Notes under the pieces: model-generated
What the model saw: the letters and a program-made list of their open reading frames with translations, nothing else
Database searches by the model: none
Told to the model about the DNA's origin: nothing
Position numbers and translations under genes: made by a program
Shown here: piece by piece, positions 10,132 through 22,134 of the stretch
Layout: each line of letters starts with the position of its first letter
Position numbering within the stretch: position 1 is the first letter of the stretch
IMG/VR virus record: IMGVR_UViG_3300021963_000590
Span: 1 to 25,645 of that record
Source: a virus
Strand: one strand, 5' to 3'
Length of the DNA stretch: 25,645 bases

Positions 10132-10777
10132 AGTCGATGCAGATAGCCAGCAGGGCTTCCGCATTGGTATCCACCTCGTACCGGCTCTTTACACCATCGA
10201 AAAGCATCTCGATCCGTTCACGCTCATTTTCCATGAAGAACAGAACAACCTGCTTTTGGTCGCCGTTCTGGTAGGTATCCATCTTTTCCTTCGTGCTATC
10301 GGTATCGGCCTTCCGGTCGTCCCCAGCGATATCCTTGGCTTTCCCGTCCAGGAAGGCACGCATGTCCACGGGAAGCGACGTATCGGCATGCAAAAGGTCG
10401 CGCACGTCCTTTTCCCAGTCGGCGATGATGACCTGCGCCCGTAGGCTTTCCTCGACGTACGCACCAGCACGCCCATTGTCGTCTTGGGCGATGGAGACGA
10501 TATCCGTCCGGCTCAGCTCCTTCCCGGCATCCACCTGGAATACCCAGGCCTCCTTGATGCCTTTCTCGCGCATGACGCGCAGGCGTTGGTTGCCTCCGAT
10601 GACCGTCCCGTCGGAAAGCGCGAGCAAAGGCTTGTACAGCTCATCGCCCGTCATGCCGATCTGCCCAAAAAGGCGCTTCAAAGCCTCCGGCGTGGCAAAG
10701 CGCGGGTTATCCACCCACTCCTTGAGGGAAGAAAGCGGACGGATGTCCTTTTCGATTTCCGTGATCTTAATCGGCAT
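10109..10777 (-). CDS. ParB-like nuclease/NTPase-domain protein, paralogue 2
   Basis: A 222-residue protein. The N-terminal part has ParB-type motifs: IRPLSSLKEWVDNPR, LYKPLLALSDGTVIGGNQRLRVMREKGIKEAWV (the GGNQR is the ParB GxxR box). The C-terminal segment KQVVLFFMENERERIEMLFDGVKSRYEVDTNAEALLAICIDYA is similar in layout to the end of the neighbouring ParB protein. The start overlaps the end of that gene by 11 bases. ParB-domain proteins recur beside phage TET/JBP and glycosyltransferase genes; their exact role in base modification is not settled. A classical partition role is unlikely, as there is no ParA. Confidence 0.75.
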   Translation of the reverse strand: MPIKITEIEKDIRPLSSLKEWVDNPRFATPEALKRLFGQIGMTGDELYKPLLALSDGTVIGGNQRLRVMREKGIKEAWVFQVDAGKELSRTDIVSIAQDDNGRAGAYVEESLRAQVIIADWEKDVRDLLHADTSLPVDMRAFLDGKAKDIAGDDRKADTDSTKEKMDTYQNGDQKQVVLFFMENERERIEMLFDGVKSRYEVDTNAEALLAICIDYAAANAK

Positions 10778-11363
10778 ATTGTTCAAGCAACCAAATGACG
10801 GCCTCGGTATGGTCGGCCTTCCCTTCCTTGTTCCGCACGTCTTCAAGCACAGCCAAGACCTTTTCATAGTCCGCATTCCCGAACGGCAGGATCATCTTCC
10901 CGATGGTGGAGACGTCCGCCATGTCGCTCGGAGCCTCGTTCCCGATCCCGGCCTCATCGAGAATATCCTCGACGGACTTGTGGGCGCCGAAGTCCACCGT
11001 CATGTCGTCGAGGTCGGCCGGAGCCATGTCGCCGATCAGCTTCATCAGCTTTTCCGGATCGGTCGCGCCGATGGCGTCATTGTCCGAGATGGCGACGAAC
11101 AGGCGTTGCGCGTGCGTCTTGGCATCCACGACGGACACCCAGGCGGTCTTTTCCCCGATAGCGCCAAGCGCCTTGAGACGCGCATGCCCGCCGAGCACTA
11201 GGCCATCCTCATCGATCACGAGCGGCTTGTACGCCCCGTACTTCCTGATCTTACGCACCAGCTTTTCCACGTCGGTATCGAACACGACGCGCGGGTTGTC
11301 CCCCCAGGGCTTGAGGTCGGAGATGTCGGCGTACCCGGTACGCAGCACTTTGATCTTTTCCAT
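10767..11363 (-). CDS. ParB-like nuclease/NTPase-domain protein, paralogue 1
   Basis: A 198-residue protein. ISDLKPWGDNPRVVFDTDVEKLVRKIRKYGAYKPLVIDEDGLVLGGHARLKALGAIGEKTAWVSVVD is a clear ParB N-terminal domain, with the GGHAR box near residue 60. RLFVAISDNDAIGATD follows, as in ParB/DNA-methylase-associated proteins, and the C-terminal KMILPFGNADYEKVLAVLEDVRNKEGKADHTEAVIWLLEQYA mirrors paralogue 2. The chosen ATG at 11363 begins exactly seven bases after a TATAAT, so the mRNA may be leaderless; a GTG at 11378 would place the -10 box inside the gene. It heads the putative base-modification operon. Confidence 0.75.
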   Translation of the reverse strand: MEKIKVLRTGYADISDLKPWGDNPRVVFDTDVEKLVRKIRKYGAYKPLVIDEDGLVLGGHARLKALGAIGEKTAWVSVVDAKTHAQRLFVAISDNDAIGATDPEKLMKLIGDMAPADLDDMTVDFGAHKSVEDILDEAGIGNEAPSDMADVSTIGKMILPFGNADYEKVLAVLEDVRNKEGKADHTEAVIWLLEQYAD

Positions 11364-11369
11364 GCGTCC

Positions 11370-11389
11370 ATTATACACCTAGCGTGCGC
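11370..11389 (-). promoter_or_regulatory. Class-2 promoter placed for a leaderless ParB transcript
   Basis: On the minus strand GCGCACGCTAGGTG is followed at once by TATAAT (11375-11370), six bases and the ATG of the first ParB gene. A transcript starting at the usual distance from the -10 box would begin at the A of ATG. No good -35 box is visible. The upstream GCGCACGCTAGGT is shared with the site at 14021-14048. Confidence 0.5.
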
Positions 11390-11392
11390 CTG

Positions 11393-11563
11393 CTACGAGG
11401 GGAAAAGCATGGCCTGGTTCGGATTCACGAACCTCGGCGAGCGGCACTTCCGGCACAGCTTCTTTTCCGCGACGCGCCGCCTGAAAGACTGGCGTCTCGC
11501 GCCGCAACCGCCGCATTGGAAATAGAATACCTTGCGCTCATTGAATAGCGTCTTATTCCTCAT
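11393..11563 (-). CDS. Small basic zinc-ribbon protein
   Basis: A 56-residue protein, MRNKTLFNERKVFYFQCGGC, then a basic linker (ARRQSFRRRVAEKK) and LCRKCRSPRF. The CGGC and CRKC pairs define a zinc ribbon. Its start overlaps the end of the RusA-like gene by 11 bases, so the two are probably translationally coupled. A nucleic-acid-binding role is likely from the charge and zinc ribbon; no specific family is recognised. It ends 29 bases before the ParB start codon, and the class-2 promoter fills that gap. Confidence 0.6.
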   Translation of the reverse strand: MRNKTLFNERKVFYFQCGGCGARRQSFRRRVAEKKLCRKCRSPRFVNPNQAMLFPS

Positions 11564-11930
11564 AGCTCTTGAGAACGACGAACACCGTCGCCCCTTCGGG
11601 CAGGCATCCGCCGTATGCGAAATGGCAATCGACGACCTGCGCGTCATCCTCGTACGCGACATGCTGCAAGGCATCCAATATCGTCTCCACCTTCCCGATG
11701 CAGTCCGCCTTCCCCGTCTTCCGGACGAACACCGTGGCCGACACCTTCCCCGGGAAAAGCCGGTATCCATTCTCCCTAGCGATCCACTTCGCCTCCTCAT
11801 GGAGACGGTCTTCGCTGAACACGGCATTCTTGCGCCGGTACTGGTAAAGACGCCCATGCTTGGATATCCCGGCACGGAAGCTGTTTTTTTTCGGCACGAC
11901 GGCCGACTTGAGCGTGTATACCTGCTCCAT
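11553..11930 (-). CDS. RusA-like Holliday-junction resolvase
   Basis: A 125-residue protein, the usual RusA length. The C-terminal half has VSATVFVRKTGKADCIGKVETILDALQHVAYEDDAQVVDCHFAY, matching the RusA layout of an acidic motif, a DAL helix and the hallmark EDDAQV. RusA enzymes cut four-way junctions made by recombination or replication, which suits the ERF/YqaJ set upstream. The first acidic motif is odd: the usual D-x-D-N is D-C-I-G here, so one catalytic aspartate may be missing or displaced. The ATG at 11930 is preferred over an upstream TTG at 11939. A hairpin with a T-run lies immediately upstream. Confidence 0.7.
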   Translation of the reverse strand: MEQVYTLKSAVVPKKNSFRAGISKHGRLYQYRRKNAVFSEDRLHEEAKWIARENGYRLFPGKVSATVFVRKTGKADCIGKVETILDALQHVAYEDDAQVVDCHFAYGGCLPEGATVFVVLKSYEE

Positions 11931-11962: not shown

Positions 11963-12248
11963 GTTCGCCTTCCGGCTTTTCCTTCTTGTCCCGAGCCTCC
12001 TTGTTGGCCTCTTCCTCGAGCAGAGAGAAATCGCCATCGAACCCATTGAGGAATCCGAGGAAATCCTGGAAGTCGGCGATGTCCTTCCGATTCTTGCGGA
12101 TCTGGCTACCCAGCATGGAAGCCTCCTGCTTCGACGCGACCTTTTTCCGTTGGAGGATAAGGTACGTCGTATTGATCTGGAGGGTATTGATATTCTTTTC
12201 GACTTCGGTACGCATCTCCTCGAGACGCATGCCAACGGTATCCTGCAT
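11949..12248 (-). CDS. Coiled-coil hypothetical protein
   Basis: A 99-residue, highly charged protein. MQDTVGMRLEEMRTEVEKNINTLQINTTYLILQRKKVASKQEASMLGSQIRKNRKDIADFQDFLGFL suggests two long helices, probably a coiled coil, with a charged tail (EEEANKEARDKKEKPEGEQAAR in pieces). I recognise no family. The ATG lies four bases after the stop of the two-helix membrane protein. Its stop codon is buried in the hairpin described at 11941-11962. Confidence 0.6.
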   Translation of the reverse strand: MQDTVGMRLEEMRTEVEKNINTLQINTTYLILQRKKVASKQEASMLGSQIRKNRKDIADFQDFLGFLNGFDGDFSLLEEEANKEARDKKEKPEGEQAAR

Positions 12249-12744: not shown

Positions 12745-13008
12745 TCAAGCGCTGACCCGTGGGCATAACGCGGATTGCGTCATGGCCGGAGGCGGGATGG
12801 AATACCCCGCAAAGACGACGTGAGGCAACGTGCGCTCACGGTCAATGGCCTCGATATCGAGGCCGCGCCGCTTTCCGTAGAAATCGACGGTCACTTTGGC
12901 CTCGGAAATGAGGCCGCGATCCGATGCTTGGAGCAAGACGATCAGCTCCTTGTCGGTGATCTCGCTCGTAAGCTCGATCCCTGGCACGTTCTTGACGTAG
13001 ATACGCAC
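12745..13008 (-). CDS. Hypothetical protein with a GTG start and a true Shine-Dalgarno site
   Basis: An 87-residue protein, MRIYVKNVPGIELTSEITDKELIVLLQASDRGLISEAKVTVDFYGKRR and onward, with an alternating beta/helix pattern but no recognised family. The start is the GTG at 13008: GGAGGAAAACA precedes it, giving a clear SD at normal spacing. This is the one strong SD leader among the minus-strand genes here. Reading on upstream would run into the tRNA-like element, so the shorter start is preferred. Confidence 0.6.
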   Translation of the reverse strand: MRIYVKNVPGIELTSEITDKELIVLLQASDRGLISEAKVTVDFYGKRRGLDIEAIDRERTLPHVVFAGYSIPPPAMTQSALCPRVSA

Positions 13009-13713: not shown

Positions 13714-13881
13714 TCAATGCCCGCCAGCAGGCGTCGAGGCGACAGCCTCGCAACTACTGCCGACGCACACGGCGTCGGATGCGACCTTCACATTCCAAAG
13801 AGCCGTAACCGCCGCCGCGACGAATGCCGAGACGATGCAGGCCAGCCAGATGTGTCTAAGTGTCGCGCGAATCCTTCCCAT
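13714..13881 (-). CDS. Small single-helix membrane protein
   Basis: A 55-residue protein, MGRIRATLRHIWLACIVSAF then VAAAVTALWNVKVASDAVCV and a Gly/Ser/Ala tail with a second cysteine (GSSCEAVASTPAGGH). A basic N-terminus precedes one transmembrane helix at about residues 12-28. The start overlaps the end of the 52-residue upstream gene by 26 bases in another frame. I recognise no family; the call rests on the membrane pattern and gene packing. Confidence 0.45.
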   Translation of the reverse strand: MGRIRATLRHIWLACIVSAFVAAAVTALWNVKVASDAVCVGSSCEAVASTPAGGH

Positions 13882-14917: not shown

Positions 14918-15418
14918 TCAGGGGAGAATGACGCGGCCTTCGGAGATCGTGAACCCCGGCACCTCCCAATACTCGCCTTTCTTGAGCACCTCGTGGATCG
15001 TGACCATCTCATCGGACGTGAAAAGCGCATGCGAATGCTTGTCCTTGGTGGTCTTCTTGGTAAACGCCTCGCGCGGCACCGGCTTCCCATTCAGGAAGTC
15101 CTGGCCTCGGCGCGTGATCGCGTAGTTGCCCGTATCCGGTAGGTCGATGATGAGGCCGAGGCGCACAAGATGCGTACGGTTGCCCGCCTGCGTCTTGGTA
15201 ATGATCCCCGTCGCCATCAGCTCCTTTTCGATATGCACCGCATTCAAATTCTTTTCCTTCACCCGGCGATAGATCGCCTGCATGACATGAGCCGTCCCAC
15301 GAGAGATGCGCGAACCGTATCCGATGCGTTGGCCGCACGTCTCGCAGTGCGTGTTTTTATCCGGAAGCTCGTCACCATCTTCGGAAAAGAGCGTTAGATT
15401 CAGATTTTCTACCTCCAT
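14918..15418 (-). CDS. Zinc-finger plus winged-helix-like DNA-binding protein
   Basis: A 166-residue protein. Near residue 24, CETCGQRIG gives one CxxC pair. The centre (GTAHVMQAIYRRVKEKNLNAVHIEKELMATGIITKTQAGNRTHLVRLGLIIDL) reads as a winged helix, followed by the wing-like NYAITRRGQDFLNGKPVPREA. Phage proteins of this layout are often early regulators or host-takeover factors, but I do not recognise the family. It follows the SSB gene by 34 bases. It is a candidate for a regulator of the promoters described here, without direct evidence. Confidence 0.6.
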   Translation of the reverse strand: MEVENLNLTLFSEDGDELPDKNTHCETCGQRIGYGSRISRGTAHVMQAIYRRVKEKNLNAVHIEKELMATGIITKTQAGNRTHLVRLGLIIDLPDTGNYAITRRGQDFLNGKPVPREAFTKKTTKDKHSHALFTSDEMVTIHEVLKKGEYWEVPGFTISEGRVILP

Positions 15419-15452: not shown

Positions 15453-15872
15453 CTAGAACGGGATGCCATCCATGGGAATGTCCTGGCCTGGCGGCGTGAC
15501 CGGCGCGGTCGTAACGGCAGGCTGTGAGCCTCCCTGCGGCTTTCGATCAAGCATGACCATCGTCTCAGCCACAATCTCGGTACGTTGCTTCTTAGCGCCA
15601 TCCTGAGCCTCCCACTCGCGCGTCTGTAGCCGACCTTCGATATAGACCTTCGATCCCTTGGCGAGATATTGGTTGCAAATCTCGGCCAGCTTCCCCCACA
15701 CGACGATGTTGTGGTACTCGACGCGTTCCTGCTTCGCCCCGTTCGCGTCCTTCCAGACGGAATTGGTGGCCATCGAGAAGTTGGAGACCTGCTGACCCGT
15801 CGTAGTGGATCGCATTTCCACGTCCTTCGTGAGATTGCCGATGAGAATGGCTTTGTTTACCGATGCGGACAT
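15453..15872 (-). CDS. ssb: Single-stranded DNA-binding protein
   Basis: A 139-residue OB-fold SSB. MSASVNKAILIGNLTKDVEM, RSTTTGQQVSNFSMATNSVW, ERVEYHNIVVWGKLAEICNQ and YLAKGSKVYIEGRLQTREWE are the four typical segments. A Pro/Gly-rich linker leads to the acidic tip DIPMDGIPF, which normally binds partner proteins. The EYHNIVVWGKLAEICNQYLxKGSKVYIEGRLQTR style recalls SSBs of Patescibacteria, a host hint only. It coats single strands during replication and recombination, working with the ERF and YqaJ proteins in the same operon. Confidence 0.92.
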   Translation of the reverse strand: MSASVNKAILIGNLTKDVEMRSTTTGQQVSNFSMATNSVWKDANGAKQERVEYHNIVVWGKLAEICNQYLAKGSKVYIEGRLQTREWEAQDGAKKQRTEIVAETMVMLDRKPQGGSQPAVTTAPVTPPGQDIPMDGIPF

Positions 15873-15886
15873 ATATTTTCGATTTA

Positions 15887-16300
15887 TTAGAAATGAGCCC
15901 CGTCCGGATCAGGTACAAGGATGCCCATGCTGGCCGCCTCCGCCCTGATCCGTTCGATGTACTCGCTAAATTCGTTCGTATCCTGATCCGTCGTCGTCCC
16001 CGGCACGGGAAACTCCTTGCCCTTGTAATTGATGATCTTTTTCTTCAAGAACATCCGCTTGTAGATCTCATGCAATTCCTCCGGCGTGTGACCCGTGTCC
16101 TTGGCGATGATGTCGAGGACAACGCCCCAGTAGTAGGCATTCTGCCGATTCGACCGCGAGCGCGATTGGCGCTTGATCGTCACCAGGACATTGTCCCCAT
16201 CCTCGAATAGCTGCATGTGCCTGGAGTACAGGGACGGATTGTTGAATGTCAGGCTCTTGCCTTTCACCTTGGCCGTGAACGTGCGCTCCAGGGCAGACAT
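15887..16300 (-). CDS. NinB/Orf-like recombination protein
   Basis: A 137-residue protein. RSRSNRQNAYYWGVVLDIIA, TGHTPEELHEIYKRMFLKKK and a C-terminal TTTDQDTNEFSEYIERIRAE segment give the NinB (lambda Orf) pattern: RSxxQNxYYW, then the TxEExHxxxK helix, then the T-x-x-x-D-x-x-x-F-x-x-Y-I end. NinB assists loading of the annealing protein on SSB-coated DNA, which fits its place between ssb and the YqaJ gene. The ATG at 16300 starts MSALERTF; longer readings overlap YqaJ. Confidence 0.8.
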   Translation of the reverse strand: MSALERTFTAKVKGKSLTFNNPSLYSRHMQLFEDGDNVLVTIKRQSRSRSNRQNAYYWGVVLDIIAKDTGHTPEELHEIYKRMFLKKKIINYKGKEFPVPGTTTDQDTNEFSEYIERIRAEAASMGILVPDPDGAHF

Positions 16301-16308
16301 ATTTTTTA

Positions 16309-16953
16309 TTAAATGCTTAGTAATTCGTCCACGATGGCGTCGATCTCGGCAAGCGTCGTGCGCTCGAAGATGGACACCCGCTCGATGTCCGGGAGGACAA
16401 GAGAGCGCGGGATCTCGATGACGTGAAAGTCTTTCACTTTGAGACGTGGATCGTAGAGGCAGAAGTACAGCGTCTCCAGCTTGTCGTTCACGATGAAATA
16501 CTGGATCGCCTGCATCTCGTAATCGTCCGGGATGCGATTCTCGATCACGGCCTGCAAGTGCTTGGCCGTGGAAAGGCACTTGATCTCGACGGCCTCGATG
16601 CCGTCCCCGATCACGCCGTCCGGAGAGATGGCGATGCGGTCGTCATCGTCCCGCGTCCACACGACAAGCGTCTGGTCAACGGCCTTGCCCGTCTTTTCCT
16701 CGAAACGCTCAATGGCTTCCTCTTGCAACCGATGCCCGCGCGACATCGGATCTTCGCCGTCATCCGGCAATCCGATACGCTCGGCGATCAGCTCGTAGAA
16801 ACCCAACTTGCGGTCGGACTTCTTCGAAATGGCGTCATTGAACGTGACATCGACCTTCTTTTTAGAAGCAATATCCTTGAGGCGCGTACCCGTGATCTTG
16901 CAGAGACGGGCTTCGAGCCATTCCTTTTCGTCGTTGAAATAGAGCGTCTTCAT
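16309..16953 (-). CDS. YqaJ-family exonuclease (lambda-exonuclease-like)
   Basis: A 214-residue protein. EWLEARLCKITGTRLKDIAS is the YqaJ N-terminal motif, DPMSRGHRLQEEAIERFEEKTG contains the glutamates of the first catalytic helix, and IAISPDGVIGDGIEAVEIKC gives the D...ExK active site (EIKC). YEMQAIQYFIVNDKLETLYF follows as usual. The enzyme resects double-stranded DNA to leave single strands for the ERF protein encoded five bases upstream, together forming a two-component recombination system. Confidence 0.88.
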   Translation of the reverse strand: MKTLYFNDEKEWLEARLCKITGTRLKDIASKKKVDVTFNDAISKKSDRKLGFYELIAERIGLPDDGEDPMSRGHRLQEEAIERFEEKTGKAVDQTLVVWTRDDDDRIAISPDGVIGDGIEAVEIKCLSTAKHLQAVIENRIPDDYEMQAIQYFIVNDKLETLYFCLYDPRLKVKDFHVIEIPRSLVLPDIERVSIFERTTLAEIDAIVDELLSI

Positions 16954-16958
16954 ACGTT

Positions 16959-17753
16959 TTACGCGGTCGGAGCAGCCTGCGGAGCCGCCAATTTCTTCTT
17001 GAGAGACGCGATGACGCCCTGAGCCTGTACCTCGGTCAGATCGGTGTACGAGATGCCGTAGAGCTCACGGATGCGCTTGGTAACAACATCCTTGGTCAAT
17101 CCTGCCTGTTGCGCCAGCGCGTCGATCTCGGCTTTCTGCTCATCGGTAGCCAGCTTCTTTGGCTTGGCGACGTCTTCGGCGTCATTGTCCTCGCCGCCGA
17201 TGATGAAGCCGAATCCATTGATGAACGCATAGCGCTTGGCGAACGTCATGGCGGATGCCGTCTTCTGCGGCGCGTTCATGTATGCCTTTTCGTCGATAGG
17301 GGCGATGAACGAAACATCCTCGGAATGCCCGTCACGATGCTTGATCGTACAAGTCACCTCGACTTCCTCCTTTGAAACCTTCGTATTGAAACTATGGGAG
17401 AAGCCGTACTTTTGGCGGAGGTCGCGCGTCTTCTGGTCGATGAACTCGAGCGGCGCGAACTTGTAGCGCAACGTCGTCTTGTCCTTTTCCCGGACTTCCT
17501 GCTTTTTCTCGATCACCGGGCATTCCGCCTGGAGCAAGGCCATTTCCCGGAAGTACGCCTCACGCGCCTGCTCGGCACGCAGATCCTTCCGCATCCCCAT
17601 GAGCCGCTCGAGCACGCCGACGTCCACCTTGTTCGTGATCGCAAGCTGCATGAGCGCCTGGATGCCATCCGCACCCTGCCCTTGCGCCTGATCCGCCACC
17701 TCTCCACCACCGTCGAGCGGCATGATCGCCTGCTCAGTTTTCTTTTTCGTCAT
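16959..17753 (-). CDS. ERF-family single-strand annealing protein
   Basis: A 264-residue protein. The ERF core is seen in LRAEQAREAYFREMALLQAE, EKDKTTLRYKFAPLEFIDQK and GFSHSFNTKVSKEEVEVTCT, then QKTASAMTFAKRYAFINGFG with the family GDDDA-like EDNDAEDV. The C-terminal half is a helical tail that probably binds SSB or the exonuclease. ERF promotes annealing of complementary single strands. It starts nine bases after a small zinc-protein gene and is the second gene behind promoter P1. Confidence 0.9.
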   Translation of the reverse strand: MTKKKTEQAIMPLDGGGEVADQAQGQGADGIQALMQLAITNKVDVGVLERLMGMRKDLRAEQAREAYFREMALLQAECPVIEKKQEVREKDKTTLRYKFAPLEFIDQKTRDLRQKYGFSHSFNTKVSKEEVEVTCTIKHRDGHSEDVSFIAPIDEKAYMNAPQKTASAMTFAKRYAFINGFGFIIGGEDNDAEDVAKPKKLATDEQKAEIDALAQQAGLTKDVVTKRIRELYGISYTDLTEVQAQGVIASLKKKLAAPQAAPTA

Positions 17754-17762
17754 AGATATGAG

Positions 17763-17888
17763 TTACGTTGTGTACATTAGAGGCACCTTGTCGCACGTCA
17801 GGCAGTAGCCATTCTCGTCGATGAACTCGACCTCGATCTGGCTAACACAAACCCGACCGCATGACGGGCACGCGATTGGCTCAGTCAT
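17763..17888 (-). CDS. Very small zinc-ribbon protein, first gene behind P1
   Basis: A 41-residue protein: MTEPIACPSCGRVCVSQIEV, then EFIDENGYCLTCDKVPLMYT and a final Thr. CPSC and CLTC form a minimal zinc ribbon. It starts about 20 bases after the expected transcription start of promoter P1 and ends nine bases before the ERF start. It is too short to place in a family but has a normal leader and sits in the operon, so I take it as a real gene. Confidence 0.6.
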   Translation of the reverse strand: MTEPIACPSCGRVCVSQIEVEFIDENGYCLTCDKVPLMYTT

Positions 17889-17916: not shown

Positions 17917-17945
17917 ATTGTGACATGTTAGCCCTAACGTGTCAA
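17917..17945 (-). promoter_or_regulatory. Promoter-operator P1
   Basis: Minus strand: TTGACA (17945-17940), 17 bases, CACAAT (17922-17917). The spacer is the palindrome with half-sites TGACACGTTA and TAACATGTCA around GGGC (17921-17944). It drives the zinc ribbon, ERF and downstream recombination genes. Its -10 box is the weakest of the four. Confidence 0.7.
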
Positions 17946-17950
17946 CATGT

Positions 17951-18139
17951 TTACTTTACCGACTTCTTCCGTCCCATCTGGCGAATGCGCTTGAAGTAGT
18001 CCGATCCGCGCGTCGCCTTCAACATCTCGCCAGTCTTCTTCCCGCGAGCTTGCGAAAGCCCGGGATTCCGACGGGCGGCTTCCTTACCGCCGAGGCTGCC
18101 AAAATAGGCGGCGGCCTCCCTCATCTTTTTTTCATCCAT
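17951..18139 (-). CDS. Small basic hypothetical protein
   Basis: A 62-residue protein, MDEKKMREAAAYFGSLGGKE then AARRNPGLSQARGKKTGEML and KATRGSDYFKRIRQMGRKKS. It is very basic; the AAAYFGSLGGKEAARR part resembles short stress/DNA-binding phage peptides (KGG-type repeats: GSLGGKEAARRN). A nucleic-acid-binding role is likely. The ATG lies within the 3' end of the upstream gene (8-base overlap). It ends six bases before the -35 side of P1. Confidence 0.55.
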   Translation of the reverse strand: MDEKKMREAAAYFGSLGGKEAARRNPGLSQARGKKTGEMLKATRGSDYFKRIRQMGRKKSVK

Positions 18140-18407
18140 ACATCTGGTACGCATCCATCCTTGCACCCGAAAGCGATTTTACGATCCCGAGCCAGTCGAT
18201 GCGCGTTTTATCAATTAGCTTGTTAGAAGCACGCATCATATACGTCGCTTGAATCCGTTTGGCCGCATCCTCGATATCGCATGCCATGCGGATATCGTAG
18301 ATAGCATCCCCAAACAGGGCATCGTCCATGACGATGTCTTCATGTACCACCGCCGTCTCAAGCGTGCGGAATTTCCGGCGGTTTCGTTGCTTGGCATTCA
18401 AATCCAT
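18132..18407 (-). CDS. Hypothetical protein
   Basis: A 91-residue protein, MDLNAKQRNRRKFRTLETAV, then DDALFGDAIYDIRMACDIED and AAKRIQATYMMRASNKLIDK. It reads as a helical protein with a basic N-terminus; no family is recognised. It begins 23 bases after the HNH-like gene and overlaps the next gene by eight bases, so it belongs to the P2 operon. Confidence 0.5.
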   Translation of the reverse strand: MDLNAKQRNRRKFRTLETAVVHEDIVMDDALFGDAIYDIRMACDIEDAAKRIQATYMMRASNKLIDKTRIDWLGIVKSLSGARMDAYQMYG

Positions 18408-18430
18408 ATTTTTGTTTCACGTGGAGCAAA

Positions 18431-18751
18431 TCAGCGCGCCTTTGCCGAGCCACGAATGAGGTGGCAAGGAGCACACAGCCAAACCACGGTAAGCGGTTCA
18501 GAATGATCCTCGTGATGCTTTTCGAGAATGCGACGCTTACCGCAGTCCCCACATCGAGATCGGCGCTTTAGCTTCCCTCGATGTTGATAGACGTTGGCAT
18601 ATGCGCGCGCCCTGCTTTTCTTTTTCTGTTCCTCAGTGAGTTCCTTATAGGAAGGACGCCAACCTCGCTGGTAAGCGTTATGACACTTCCGGCAGTACCT
18701 CTGCCCCGGTCGCCGCTGAACACGCTTTTTACATTTAGAGCATTGTTTCAT
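18431..18751 (-). CDS. HNH-like zinc protein (possibly degenerate endonuclease)
   Basis: A 106-residue protein. CSKCKKRVQRRPGQRYCRKC forms a first zinc knuckle, and CGDCGKRRILEKHHEDHSEP with WLCAPCHLIRG a second, in the HNH arrangement (HHED...LCxxCH). Phage proteins of this type are common and often annotated HNH. The typical Asn and second catalytic His are not clear, so nicking activity is uncertain. The ATG at 18751 is preferred, because the hairpin at 18785-18822 marks the sequence before it as 5' leader; MFLDILDAMKQ from 18775 is possible. Confidence 0.6.
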   Translation of the reverse strand: MKQCSKCKKRVQRRPGQRYCRKCHNAYQRGWRPSYKELTEEQKKKSRARAYANVYQHRGKLKRRSRCGDCGKRRILEKHHEDHSEPLTVVWLCAPCHLIRGSAKAR

Positions 18752-18784
18752 GGCGTCCAGTATATCAAGAAACATCCGCGCGGC

Positions 18785-18822
18785 GGCCGGAGTGGTGAAG
18801 TCGAAACCTCTCCACACCGGCC
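18785..18822 (-). promoter_or_regulatory. UUCG-capped leader hairpin in the P2 transcript
   Basis: On the minus strand three helices stack with single mismatches: GGCCGG, GTGG and GAGGT pair with ACTTC, CCAC and CCGGCC, capped by TTCG. That is 15 pairs in 38 bases. No T-run follows. It stands between P2 and the HNH-like gene, so it would be in the 5' leader. Confidence 0.55.
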
Positions 18823-18862
18823 ACCGCCCTCCTGACAGCCAGTATTTCGGCTATCTATAGAG

Positions 18863-18891
18863 ATTATGACATGTTAGCGGTAACGTGTCAA
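18863..18891 (-). promoter_or_regulatory. Promoter-operator P2
   Basis: Minus strand: TTGACA (18891-18886), 17 bases, CATAAT (18868-18863). The palindrome half-sites TGACACGTTA and TAACATGTCA surround CCGC (18867-18890). The stop codon of the gene ending at 18888 lies within the -35 box. It drives the HNH-like gene and the two genes after it. Confidence 0.75.
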
Positions 18892-19340
18892 GAGTTATCC
18901 GGAACGAACTCGTACGCCTCGACGGTGTAGCCCTCATGCGCGAGCGCGTGCTCCATGGAGTAGGCGAGGCAGTGCTTGGCGAACCATTCATAGACGCCGT
19001 TCTTTCCCTCGACGATAGCCTTGAGCTCGCCGTCCTTCCGGATGATCGCCATGTATTGCGTGTTCACCAAGGAATCCTTGTAGGTATCCAACGAATAGGT
19101 ATCGATGACGCAACGCTTCAACATACAGACGCAGTCGGAGGCCGAGAGCGTCCAACCCTTCCAGAGAGGATTCCGCATCCCTTCAAAATGGCTTTGCCAT
19201 TCCCGGAGCGGCACGTTGTTCAGATGCTCATCCTCCTGAATCAGCCTCCACCATTCCGCCCGGTCGCGCCCCTTATAGGTATCGCCTAGCTTGATCGCCA
19301 TCGCGTGGTAAAGCAGGCGGTATTTGTTGTTGTGCGGCAA
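18888..19340 (-). CDS. Hypothetical protein with a blocked ATG start
   Basis: A 150-residue protein from the TTG at 19340: MPHNNKYRLLYHAMAIKLGD, then EWWRLIQEDEHLNNVPLREW, CVCMLKRCVIDTYSLDTYKD and AYSMEHALAHEGYTVEAYEF. No family recognised. In the same frame a better-placed ATG (19364-19362) in the usual A-rich leader is followed by GAG and a TAA stop, and reading resumes ITWNKLPHNN. The TTG may be the true start, or the gene may have lost its ATG start by mutation. It ends inside the P2 -35 box. Confidence 0.5.
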   Translation of the reverse strand: MPHNNKYRLLYHAMAIKLGDTYKGRDRAEWWRLIQEDEHLNNVPLREWQSHFEGMRNPLWKGWTLSASDCVCMLKRCVIDTYSLDTYKDSLVNTQYMAIIRKDGELKAIVEGKNGVYEWFAKHCLAYSMEHALAHEGYTVEAYEFVPDNS

Positions 19341-19372
19341 CTTGTTCCAAGTGATTTACTCCATAGTGTTTT

Positions 19373-19678
19373 TTATTTCGTCTTAATGAGTTTTGCGGCC
19401 TTCACATCGACCGCGAGCCACATGCGCCCCTGCGTATCCGGGAACGTGGAATGCAGATAGTCGATCTCGAGCTTCCCGAGCGCCCGGAACGGATAGACGC
19501 CGTGGACATGGCCGTGCGTGTAGAAATTCTCCTTGAGGAACCTGACGCGCTCATCGTCCATCGGAACGTAGAGCTGGACGTACTCCTTCATGCTTCCACG
19601 CCCAATGTGCGCGGAAGATGGACGGACGCCCGTCAGATACTCAAACACCTGCATGGCGTTTTTCGTTTCGGTCTTCAT
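19373..19678 (-). CDS. Hypothetical protein
   Basis: A 101-residue protein, MKTETKNAMQVFEYLTGVRP, then SSAHIGRGSMKEYVQLYVPM and DDERVRFLKENFYTHGHVHG, ending RMWLAVDVKAAKLIKTK. It looks like a compact alpha/beta protein; HGHVHG could bind metal but nothing else supports an enzyme. The ATG at 19678 follows the previous stop by about nine bases. It lies in the P3 operon. Confidence 0.55.
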   Translation of the reverse strand: MKTETKNAMQVFEYLTGVRPSSAHIGRGSMKEYVQLYVPMDDERVRFLKENFYTHGHVHGVYPFRALGKLEIDYLHSTFPDTQGRMWLAVDVKAAKLIKTK

Positions 19679-19689
19679 AGAAATGCGGC

Positions 19690-19896
19690 TTAGCGCAGAT
19701 AGGCGCACGGATTGATCTTGAAACCGCGCTTGCCGTACTTCTTGGCGATCCGCATGCCTTCGGCGTCAAGGACGTCGAGGAACGGCTGGATGCGGAACCG
19801 GCACTCGTCATATCCGATCTTCCCGGCGCGCAGCAGGGCGCGGAGCTCCTCCGCCTGCGTGCGCGCATCCTGCACGGTGATCGTTTCGGTGGTCAT
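19690..19896 (-). CDS. Small hypothetical protein
   Basis: A 68-residue protein, MTTETITVQDARTQAEELRA then LLRAGKIGYDECRFRIQPFL and DVLDAEGMRIAKKYGKRGFK, ending INPCAYLR. A helical N-terminus is followed by a basic end. The ATG overlaps the preceding stop as ATGA, so it is coupled to the 19893-20198 gene. No family recognised. Confidence 0.55.
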   Translation of the reverse strand: MTTETITVQDARTQAEELRALLRAGKIGYDECRFRIQPFLDVLDAEGMRIAKKYGKRGFKINPCAYLR

Positions 19897-20198
19897 AGGA
19901 CGTAGTCTTTATAGCTGACCCCGTTCACTTTCTGCTCGCGGAGATCGACATAGAGCGTCTCGTACTCTTCCTCATCGACGTCCGGCTGGATGCCGAAGCC
20001 CGTAAGCCCGAGGACATCGTCCTGGATCATTTCACAAAAGATGACGCGGGCAAGGTAATAAGGATCGCTCCATCGGGACTTGCCCCGGATCAGCGCGGCC
20101 TTGAGGACTTCCGGCAACCCGTTCCCTCCCCAGTGCGAGTAAAAACAAATCTGCTTGCCGTCCCCGTACTCGAGGACGATGTTCGTGCGTGCGCCCAT
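19893..20198 (-). CDS. Conserved phage hypothetical protein (SHWGG type)
   Basis: A 101-residue protein, MGARTNIVLEYGDGKQICFY SHWGGNG..., with KAALIRGKSRWSDPYYLARV and IFCEMIQDDVLGLTGFGIQP. The CFYSHWGGxxLPxxL and RWxDPxYLARxIFCEMI pattern is one I recognise from conserved unknown phage proteins with no assigned function. It is the first gene after promoter P3, about 100 bases downstream, with a hairpin in the leader. The ATG at 20198 is the only sensible start. Confidence 0.65.
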   Translation of the reverse strand: MGARTNIVLEYGDGKQICFYSHWGGNGLPEVLKAALIRGKSRWSDPYYLARVIFCEMIQDDVLGLTGFGIQPDVDEEEYETLYVDLREQKVNGVSYKDYVL

Positions 20199-20229
20199 AT
20201 GTGTTGCGTGTTCGTGAGTGAGTAATGGT

Positions 20230-20272
20230 ATCGGGCGGATTCCGCCAGCCGAGGCCAGCCGTTCCGCCCGAT
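20230..20272 (-). promoter_or_regulatory. Leader hairpin in the P3 transcript
   Basis: ATCGGGCGGA pairs perfectly with TCCGCCCGAT (10 bp) around a 23-base loop that contains a GCCAGCC/GCCAGCC direct repeat on the plus strand. No T-run follows. It lies between P3 and the SHWGG-type gene, as the 18785 hairpin lies behind P2. Confidence 0.5.
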
Positions 20273-20306
20273 CCCGAAAGGTCGATGCTCTCAACCTTAT
20301 GTCTAT

Positions 20307-20335
20307 ATTATGACGTGTTAGGTCTAACGTGTCAA
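20307..20335 (-). promoter_or_regulatory. Promoter-operator P3
   Basis: Minus strand: TTGACA (20335-20330), 17 bases, CATAAT (20312-20307). The palindrome half-sites TGACACGTTA and TAACACGTCA surround GACC (20311-20334). It starts the four-gene block ending at 18888. Confidence 0.75.
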
Positions 20336-20340
20336 GTGGG

Positions 20341-21015
20341 CTAATTAGAGACGAATTTGTTGTAAAAGTCAATGCGTCCCTTTGTCTTCTGCTCGCCCTC
20401 GATAATCCCCTGGCAGACCCAGCGCGTTCCTCCTTTGAGCTTCTTGATCGCCGCCTTGGTAGCGCAAGTAAGGTCGTCGGCGCACTTGGTCGTGACGTCG
20501 GGATGCCACCGGCTATTGAACATGAAGTATCCCCGGTCAACCGATCCGGGCGCGGACGTGTTCCCTGCCGAATTCCGCATGCTGACCCCGAACGAGCTTT
20601 CGCAATCGGCGAGCGCCAAAAGGTACGGGATATCCTTGACCCCCTCGGCCTTGGCGATGGCCACGATCTTGTTGGCGACCTCAATCTGTTTCTTGGAATG
20701 CTTGGGGCTGAACGGCTTATGGTATGCGGCCTGCTTGGCCTTCGGCTTCCGGCTTTCCTCCCAAGCCTTCCATTCGGCGTCCAGCTCCGGCGTGGAACAG
20801 CGCCACTCCGTAGCCCCTACCTTCGGCCAAGCGCACCCCGTGTCCGCTTTCTGGACATCGGCCGCCACCGGGAGCGTATTGCCGCCCACAGAGGCTTCCA
20901 CGGGCTTCAAAAGCCCGACGACGATGGAATGCGCGGCGAACACGAAATACCCGCCGATGAATACCGTGGCGATACCCCGCTCAAGGCGAGGGCGCATCTT
21001 GGAAAGAAAGGGCAT
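20341..21015 (-). CDS. Membrane-anchored lytic transglycosylase/endolysin
   Basis: A 224-residue protein. A basic N-terminus and a hydrophobic segment at about residues 14-36 (GIATVFIGGYFVFAAHSIVVGLL in pieces) anchor it in the inner membrane. A linker with two cysteines (C61, C73) follows. The C-terminal domain is SLT-like: KIVAIAKAEGVKDIPYLLAL, then ADCESSFGVSMRNSAGNTSA with the probable catalytic E139, and YFMFNSRWHPDV. It would cut the glycan strands of peptidoglycan. Similar domains are frequent in Patescibacteria and their viruses. Export by a signal anchor means it may not need a holin. It lies ten bases after a 40-residue gene behind promoter P4. Confidence 0.75.
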   Translation of the reverse strand: MPFLSKMRPRLERGIATVFIGGYFVFAAHSIVVGLLKPVEASVGGNTLPVAADVQKADTGCAWPKVGATEWRCSTPELDAEWKAWEESRKPKAKQAAYHKPFSPKHSKKQIEVANKIVAIAKAEGVKDIPYLLALADCESSFGVSMRNSAGNTSAPGSVDRGYFMFNSRWHPDVTTKCADDLTCATKAAIKKLKGGTRWVCQGIIEGEQKTKGRIDFYNKFVSN

Positions 21016-21024
21016 ACAGGCTGG

Positions 21025-21147
21025 TTATTTGGCGAGGACGGCGTGGAGGGCGACGAGGCGCTTGTATTCCTCCGTGCCGGTCTGGCCTTCGATAATAAGG
21101 GTGTCGATCCGTTCATTGACCATCTTGAGCGTCTGGGACTTGTTCAT
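21025..21147 (-). CDS. Very small helical protein, first gene behind P4
   Basis: A 40-residue protein, MNKSQTLKMVNERIDTLIIE then GQTGTEEYKRLVALHAVLAK. Helical and charged; no family recognised. It starts about 28 bases after the expected P4 transcription start, with the leader AAATAACCAAAACAAAT, and ends ten bases before the transglycosylase start. Clean spacing on both sides makes it a likely real gene; it might be a regulator or partner of the lysis protein. Confidence 0.6.
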   Translation of the reverse strand: MNKSQTLKMVNERIDTLIIEGQTGTEEYKRLVALHAVLAK

Positions 21148-21181
21148 ATTTGTTTTGGTTATTTGTTTAGCTTACATCTAT

Positions 21182-21210
21182 ATTATGACACGTTAGGGCT
21201 AACATGTCAA
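21182..21210 (-). promoter_or_regulatory. Promoter-operator P4
   Basis: Minus strand: TTGACA (21210-21205), 17 bases, CATAAT (21187-21182). The palindrome half-sites TGACATGTTA and TAACGTGTCA surround GCCC (21186-21209). It drives the 40-residue gene and the transglycosylase. It marks the boundary with the plus-strand island. Confidence 0.75.
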
Positions 21211-21757: not shown

Positions 21758-21777
21758 GGGAGGGGGTAGGGGGAGGG
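21758..21777 (+). other. G-quadruplex-capable tract
   Basis: Four G runs, GGG-A-GGGGG-TA-GGGGG-A-GGG, with one- or two-base loops. The CCCCCTA at 21742-21748 can instead pair with TAGGGGG at 21767-21773, so a hairpin competes with the quadruplex. Confidence 0.55.
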
Positions 21778-21832
21778 CTGTGCCAACGCCAACCAGCTCT
21801 ATTATCTCGCTTGTTAGCAAAATACCCCTTCT

Positions 21833-22033
21833 ATGGTGTGCCGTTCCTGTGGCGCGGATATGCGCTTGAAACAAAGGACCGTTTGGCCTGAAAGGCTAAA
21901 GCGCCAAGCCTACTTCTTCACGGCTTGGTGGCTCTGCCCTTCCGGGCACATCGTCAACATCGAAAGCGAAAAGCATTGGCCTTCCGAATTCGATTCCTTA
22001 TGCCCTAACAAACCGACGGAATCATTCCTATGA
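21833..22033 (+). CDS. Plus-strand zinc-ribbon protein
   Basis: A 66-residue protein, MVCRSCGADMRLKQRTVWPE then RLKRQAYFFTAWWLCPSGHI and VNIESEKHWPSEFDSLCPNK. CRSC with C-P-S-G-H makes a four-ligand zinc ribbon, typical of small conserved phage or host proteins. It is read against the direction of almost every other gene. Its stop overlaps the start of the next plus-strand gene (ATGA), which supports both as real. No specific function is recognised. Confidence 0.65.
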   Translation: MVCRSCGADMRLKQRTVWPERLKRQAYFFTAWWLCPSGHIVNIESEKHWPSEFDSLCPNKPTESFL

Positions 22034-22134
22034 CCTGCATGTTCTGCAATACGCCAACCACATGGAAGATCATCGAGACGGACGACAACCTGATCGCCCT
22101 CTGCTCTAAACACGAATCGTTCGACTTGCTATAG
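22030..22134 (+). CDS. Plus-strand mini zinc protein with in-frame amber and 21-codon extension
   Basis: A 34-residue protein, MTCMFCNTPTTWKIIETDDN then LIALCSKHESFDLL. CMFC with C-x-x-H gives a minimal zinc site. After the TAG at 22132 the same frame continues for 21 codons (SPDLYGIPVLDKSQAGLRHR plus K) to TAA at 22200, and a terminator follows 17 bases later. The extension reads like protein, so amber readthrough or a recent nonsense mutation is possible. The start overlaps the upstream stop by four bases. Confidence 0.55.
   Translation: MTCMFCNTPTTWKIIETDDNLIALCSKHESFDLL

Follow-up and report, generated by a model that had tools for sequence, protein, structure and literature searches.

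A repeated operator over four phage promoters points to a probable shared regulon without a recognisable repressor

What reads a repeated operator in a phage that encodes no known repressor? This question is raised, and made testable, by the 25,645-base virus record IMGVR_UViG_3300021963_000590, a genome fragment that we analysed whole and call the window, in which four leftward promoters each carry one and the same inverted repeat. We consider it probable, at roughly two in three, that these four sites are the promoter-operators of one regulon under a shared dimeric repressor. The sites, with their matches to the pattern TTGACAYGTTANNNNTAACRTGTCAYAAT, are:

17917-17945, minus strand: promoter-operator 1, TTGACACGTTAGGGCTAACATGTCACAAT, exact match
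18863-18891, minus strand: promoter-operator 2, TTGACACGTTACCGCTAACATGTCATAAT, exact match
20307-20335, minus strand: promoter-operator 3, TTGACACGTTAGACCTAACACGTCATAAT, one mismatch
21182-21210, minus strand: promoter-operator 4, TTGACATGTTAGCCCTAACGTGTCATAAT, exact match

The coordinates, strand, TTGACA, 17-bp spacer and CAYAAT given for these promoters in a preliminary description of this DNA were exact, and all four copies hold these elements in common around the inverted repeat, which in every copy lies between and over the -35 and -10 boxes. The pattern, present in three exact copies and one with a single mismatch (20307-20335), occurred in none of 100 dinucleotide shuffles. When we scanned the window for TTGACA, a spacer of 16-18 bp and a -10 box matching at at least 4 of 6 positions, these four were the only consensus promoters. 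Furthermore, a matrix built from them scored the sites themselves at 30.8-33.1 and the next best window position at 16.2. An extended -10 (TGN) is present in three of the four promoters, and in 10 of 11 sites across the three phages compared below. The half-sites pair as TGACATGTTA/TGACACGTTA, TGACACGTTA/TGACGTGTTA, TGACACGTTA/TGACATGTTA and TGACACGTTA/TGACATGTTA, each copy consisting of a C-form half-site and a T- or G-form half-site, and the dyad arms are preserved around a centre that mostly varies. The earlier statements that the variation keeps the symmetry and is confined to the four central bases and two Y/R positions did not stand: no copy is symmetric at the Y/R position, leaving 8-9 of 10 strictly symmetric pairs (9, 8, 9 and 9 in the four copies), the site at 20307-20335 also has CACGTCA for CATGTCA, and of the four central bases the last does not vary, being C throughout. 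Because similarity continues for about 11 bp beyond the -10 box in three of the four copies (the D1 family), the window promoters look like duplicated promoters. A role of the dyads as intrinsic terminators was considered and rejected, as no T-run follows them.

We gathered relatives by terminase and capsid searches of IMG/VR. The nearest, G001 (IMGVR_UViG_3300005683_000542, 32.9 kb, an incomplete record that lacks the part from recT to rusA), has a terminase 66% and a capsid 68% identical to those of the window. A scan of G001 for the bare promoter TTGACA-N17-YANNNT, in which no dyad was required, returned only three sites, TTGACAGCTTACCGCTAAGCTGCTATTAT, TTGACAGCTTATCGGTAAGCTGCTAATCT and TTGACAGCTTAGCGTCAACCTGATAACAT, all co-directional and all inside 2 kb. 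Each carries the operator TTGACAGCTTA-N4-TAAGCTG; the first and second form clean dyads that keep the gap and register of the window but have different bases, and the third is degraded. The sites stand before the transglycosylase orthologue, before a DUF3560-type gene with a small basic protein, and before a small zinc-finger gene with a recT-like gene (named by eye); their window counterparts are promoter 4 before the transglycosylase, promoter 2 before the block ending in a small basic protein, and promoter 1 before the same zinc-finger gene and ERF. The preliminary description had suggested searching relatives with the palindrome as a matrix, and the matrix made from the window sites alone indeed ranks the three G001 sites at the top on L009. 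In a second relative, G018 (IMGVR_UViG_3300033067_001276, 36.1 kb, capsid 58% identical), the operator is TTGACACTTG-N4-CAAGTGT (full form TTGACACTTGGCGTCAAGTGTGGCAYAAT), with the following copies:

11550-11578, minus strand: perfect operator copy
12112-12140, minus strand: degraded operator copy
12798-12826, plus strand: perfect operator copy
13748-13776, plus strand: degraded operator copy

The G018 arrangement is divergent, not tandem: the rightward pair precedes a DUF3560 gene and a recT-like gene, and the leftward units precede blocks of small genes. Its dyad centre lies one base away from the position seen in the window. Three relatives thus carry three operator sequences at equivalent places. 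Conservation, which the preliminary description had expected of the palindrome, proved divided: the exact operator occurs in no other viral contig, yet the relatives preserve its position, its spacing and the geometry of the dyad. A 33-bp query likewise found nothing in phage and plasmid collections, and the window terminase had no relative in GTDB genomes. The loose pattern TTGACANNTTA-N4-TAANNTG matched many viral contigs, mostly as single copies in phages without visible kinship, and these candidates (L018 and similar, L012) were dropped.

A near-consensus promoter with a dyad across its spacer is where a repressor that shuts out polymerase is classically found. The four sites would act as strong sigma70-type promoters, with a consensus -35, a 17-bp spacer and mostly an extended -10, and one operator would extend over the spacer into the inner edge of each box, so that a dimeric DNA-binding protein on the inverted repeat would exclude RNA polymerase. 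A repressor is the natural reading because near-consensus -35 and -10 boxes need no activator, and a single regulator over four blocks because the operator is shared. Four leftward blocks would be switched together: the transglycosylase-like gene, two small-gene blocks and the recombination/replication operon. The earlier proposal that one protein represses these blocks was right in its layout, as the promoters precede the blocks it named and the architecture recurs in two relatives; binding, repression and a single regulator are what we infer from the sequence. A shared dimeric repressor is further supported because specificity appears swapped at kept positions in the relatives; operator change of this kind is what repressor-operator co-evolution would give, and resembles heteroimmune phages. 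The support lies in the repetition, in arms kept around a mostly varying centre, and in two relatives that show this geometry with operators of different sequence.

Several points weigh against a common repressor. There is no protein known to bind the four sites, and profiles for HTH_3, RHH_1, S24 and integrase found no match in the window, G001 or G018; the same profiles matched in 13-14 of 14 control genomes. Taken singly, the dyad of one promoter is not significant when the -35, TG and -10 elements are held fixed (P 0.04-0.8), and part of it is implied by the promoter itself since TTGACA and TG are partly complementary. An earlier dyad test with shuffled spacers had looked significant, but the stricter fixed-element test weakened that result and is the one that we weigh here. 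Two of the four G018 sites are poor palindromes. Lastly, more distant relatives scanned whole or near-whole have no comparable repeated dyad. In the records of 14 other relatives the promoter pattern is present 0 or 1 times each, which we count in favour of the proposal. Judging from these two results, the promoter-operator layout is confined to a small branch rather than shared by the whole group. Two distant relatives, G016 (L153/L154: 2386, 37908) and G005 (L155: 2474, 7708), have pairs of similar consensus promoters (TTGACAACCAAGCA... and TTGACAAGCnACCAA...) with the -35 side in common and no clear dyad.

We then considered who might read the operator. The preliminary description had found no regulator evident in the window, and this holds also for G018, which has no visible repressor or integrase and is probably a complete, circularly permuted genome, because its two ends share eight bases (TTAATGCA) within the tape-measure gene. 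Most early-region proteins were also scanned against Pfam and PHROGs, with no regulator scoring above threshold, and the hallmarks of a CI-type temperate phage, an HTH_3/S24 repressor together with an integrase, were found in none of the three records. An MrpR-type repressor was likewise not found, MrpR_N_CB matching only at chance level (E 0.12) and the Phage_integrase family not at all in the three records. Two weak candidates came forward:

14918-15418, minus strand: winged-helix-like protein, with weak matches to Mrr_N (E 0.03) and to phrog_2440 'transcriptional regulator' (E 0.074)
17951-18139 in the window, 13749-13997 on L009 (G001) and 11575-11778 on L182 (G018): small basic protein, its gene end adjoining an operator in all three phages

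The first has no counterpart in G018 and gave an uninformative AlphaFold model (pLDDT 46); the models of both candidates were too poor to use. The small basic proteins of the three phages align weakly (24-34%, five invariant columns), so that their homology is unproven, and a search with the window protein did not recover the other two.

The absence of a recognisable phage repressor or integrase from three genomes, one of them probably complete, also speaks for a repressor of the host, LexA-like or other, reading the operators: the phage would borrow a host regulon, and operator differences would be host differences. There is precedent in GIL01, which is repressed by host LexA (PMC4551915), and LexA operators are widely changed, with 17 motifs reported (PMC8565304). 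Against it, the exact 24-bp operator occurs only once in 257 Gb of bacterial and archaeal GTDB genomes, where it forms a terminator hairpin between two convergent genes; this single occurrence gives a host regulon no support, although the argument is weak, as looser versions may serve as sites in the host, which itself may lie outside the collection. We regard a host repressor as possible but doubtful, and a phage protein that profile libraries do not recognise, for which the odds appear about even, as the likelier reader.

A less probable account, and one we think unlikely, dispenses with a regulator: a strong promoter cassette would have been copied within each phage, and the apparent dyad would arise from the partly complementary -35 TTGACA and extended -10 TG. 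The fixed-element test on single sites and the similarity running beyond the -10 in three of the four copies both fit such copying. However, no promoter element prescribes the inner arms, and these are complementary in three versions of different sequence (YGTTA/TAACR, GCTTA/TAAGC and CTTG/CAAG); those of the window are preserved on either side of a varying centre. Least likely by far is another DNA-level role for the dyad, in partition, replication or packaging or as a site of ParB type bound by phage ParB-domain proteins: a ParB-like protein is encoded at window 10767-11378 and a ParB_N protein in G018, but these seem to resemble ParB_N nuclease/methylase-linked types rather than centromere binders, and in three phages every copy is tied to a 17-bp promoter spacer and oriented towards the genes that it precedes.

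A common repressor would place these phages in a kind of system that is already known (P1 C1, L5 Rep, SPbeta MrpR), of which this member is new. In P1, the C1 repressor, encoded by the phage gene c1, acts over many separate phage promoters through asymmetric 17-mer operators; the proposed plan of one repressor over many promoters is alike, whereas the window sites are dyads. In cluster A mycobacteriophages (L5, Bxb1, Trixie), one repressor serves many dispersed operators or stoperators (PMC6550527, PMC9283540), and related phages differ in the consensus of their sites and are heteroimmune, with documented repressor-operator co-evolution (PMC6550527). The present phages share with them dispersed repeated sites that differ in sequence between relatives. 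However, the cluster A repressor reads its sites as a monomer, and these are asymmetric, 13 bp long and for the most part not within promoters, in contrast to four dyads within promoters here, where furthermore no repressor or lysogeny gene is visible. In SPbeta, SPBRE elements were recognised in silico 24 years before their repressor was found, and this repressor, MrpR, has a recombinase-like fold and is not a classical HTH (helix-turn-helix) protein (PMC10516654). As in SPbeta, a repeated element stands at several phage intergenic regions; unlike here, SPBRE is a 15-bp motif and SPbeta is temperate with known recombination genes. GIL01 (Betatectivirus), which host LexA regulates together with gp7 (PMC4551915), is similar in that its promoters are controlled by a dyad-binding regulator which need not come from the phage itself, and differs in that the window operator matches no host motif found.

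The main genes of the window are all on the minus strand, the genome segment that joins the capsid and tail genes lies outside this fragment, and the blocks behind the four operators fall within the following layout:

0.3-8 kb, minus strand: capsid, portal and terminase genes
9-18 kb, minus strand: replication/recombination genes
15453-17888, minus strand: recombination block under operator 1, with a 41-amino-acid zinc-finger open reading frame (ORF) 17763-17888, ERF 16959-17753, YqaJ/RecE exonuclease 16309-16953, NinB-like 15887-16300 and SSB-like 15453-15872
18-21 kb, minus strand: small genes and the transglycosylase-like gene
17951-18751, minus strand: block under operator 2, with HNH/zinc-ribbon-like 18431-18751, unassigned ORF 18132-18407 and small basic protein 17951-18139
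18888-20198, minus strand: block under operator 3, four small genes at 19893-20198, 19690-19896, 19373-19708 and 18888-19340
20341-21147, minus strand: block under operator 4, a 40-amino-acid ORF 21025-21147 and the transglycosylase-like gene 20341-21015
22.5-25.6 kb, minus strand: tail genes

In the recombination block, Pfam identified ERF (E 8e-16) and YqaJ (E 3e-14) and PHROGs gave a match to phrog_155 (E 2.6e-30); the NinB-like match is weak (E 0.03), and the SSB-like protein, assigned by eye, has a G018 counterpart that is 50% identical. The transglycosylase-like gene matches SLT_3 at E 1.6e-4, below the curated Pfam cut-off, and its G001 orthologue, 42% identical, also lies behind an operator. 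The four small genes under operator 3 gave no informative family in the Pfam and PHROGs scans. In the gap between the tail genes and operator 4, small zinc-finger-like ORFs lie on the opposite strand (window 21830-22134, plus; L009 11102-11508, minus), those at window 22030-22134 and L009 11102-11272 being about 52% alike over 27 amino acids. The corresponding intergenic region has G-quadruplex-like runs, seen by eye, in the window (GGGAGGGGGTAGGGGGAGGG, 21758-21777) and in G018 (GGGGGGGGGTAGGGGGGGG, L182 12670-12688), which are possibly an origin. G001 also appears to encode QueD-, FolE- and QueC-like proteins (L005 2629-5047, by eye only) of the 7-deazaguanine pathway, with DNA modification as a possible role. 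Shine-Dalgarno sequences are scarce at gene starts (1 of 27 genes in the window, 0 of 22 on L182, 0 of 15 on L005), which suggests a host lineage whose translation does not depend on these sequences.

Some of the transcripts that would start at these operators have predicted structured 5' leaders of about 100 nt:

20199-20300, minus strand: structured leader behind operator 3, -43.5 kcal/mol, z -5.1
18752-18856, minus strand: structured leader behind operator 2, -54.2 kcal/mol, z -5.5, apical GGUUUCGACU loop
L009 12897-12993, plus strand: structured leader in G001
L182 12834-12932, plus strand: structured leader in G018

These four (two in the window, one in each relative; z -3.0 to -5.5) consist of a 6-8 bp hairpin followed by a long hairpin, whereas the leader of operator 4 is an unstructured 28 nt (21148-21175) to the first ATG at 21147. 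The apical loop of the operator 2 leader is conserved in G001 and G018; the apical sequence is GGUUNCGACU in three of the four leaders and GGCCUCGGCU, with a compensated pair, in the fourth. In the DNA retrieved for the three phages, the pattern GGTTNCGACT occurs once per phage, at the leader position. Rfam gave nothing at gathering score in the window and only weak below-threshold matches in the leaders, which no family fits. We treat a conserved structured leader as a separate lead, four sequences being too few for a firm claim.

Tentatively, these phages may form a lineage without a recognisable repressor or lysogeny module, whose early blocks stand under a common, fast-changing operator read either by an undescribed class of DNA-binding protein, such as the small basic protein, or by the regulator of an uncultivated, Shine-Dalgarno-poor host. 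If the shared-repressor proposal is true, recombination, lysis-type and small genes would be coordinated by one switch, the specificity of which has been swapped between related phages. Immunity or silencing could then be approached in uncultivated phages without visible lysogeny genes, and the SPbeta precedent indicates that new repressor folds can be reached from elements first recognised purely in sequence.

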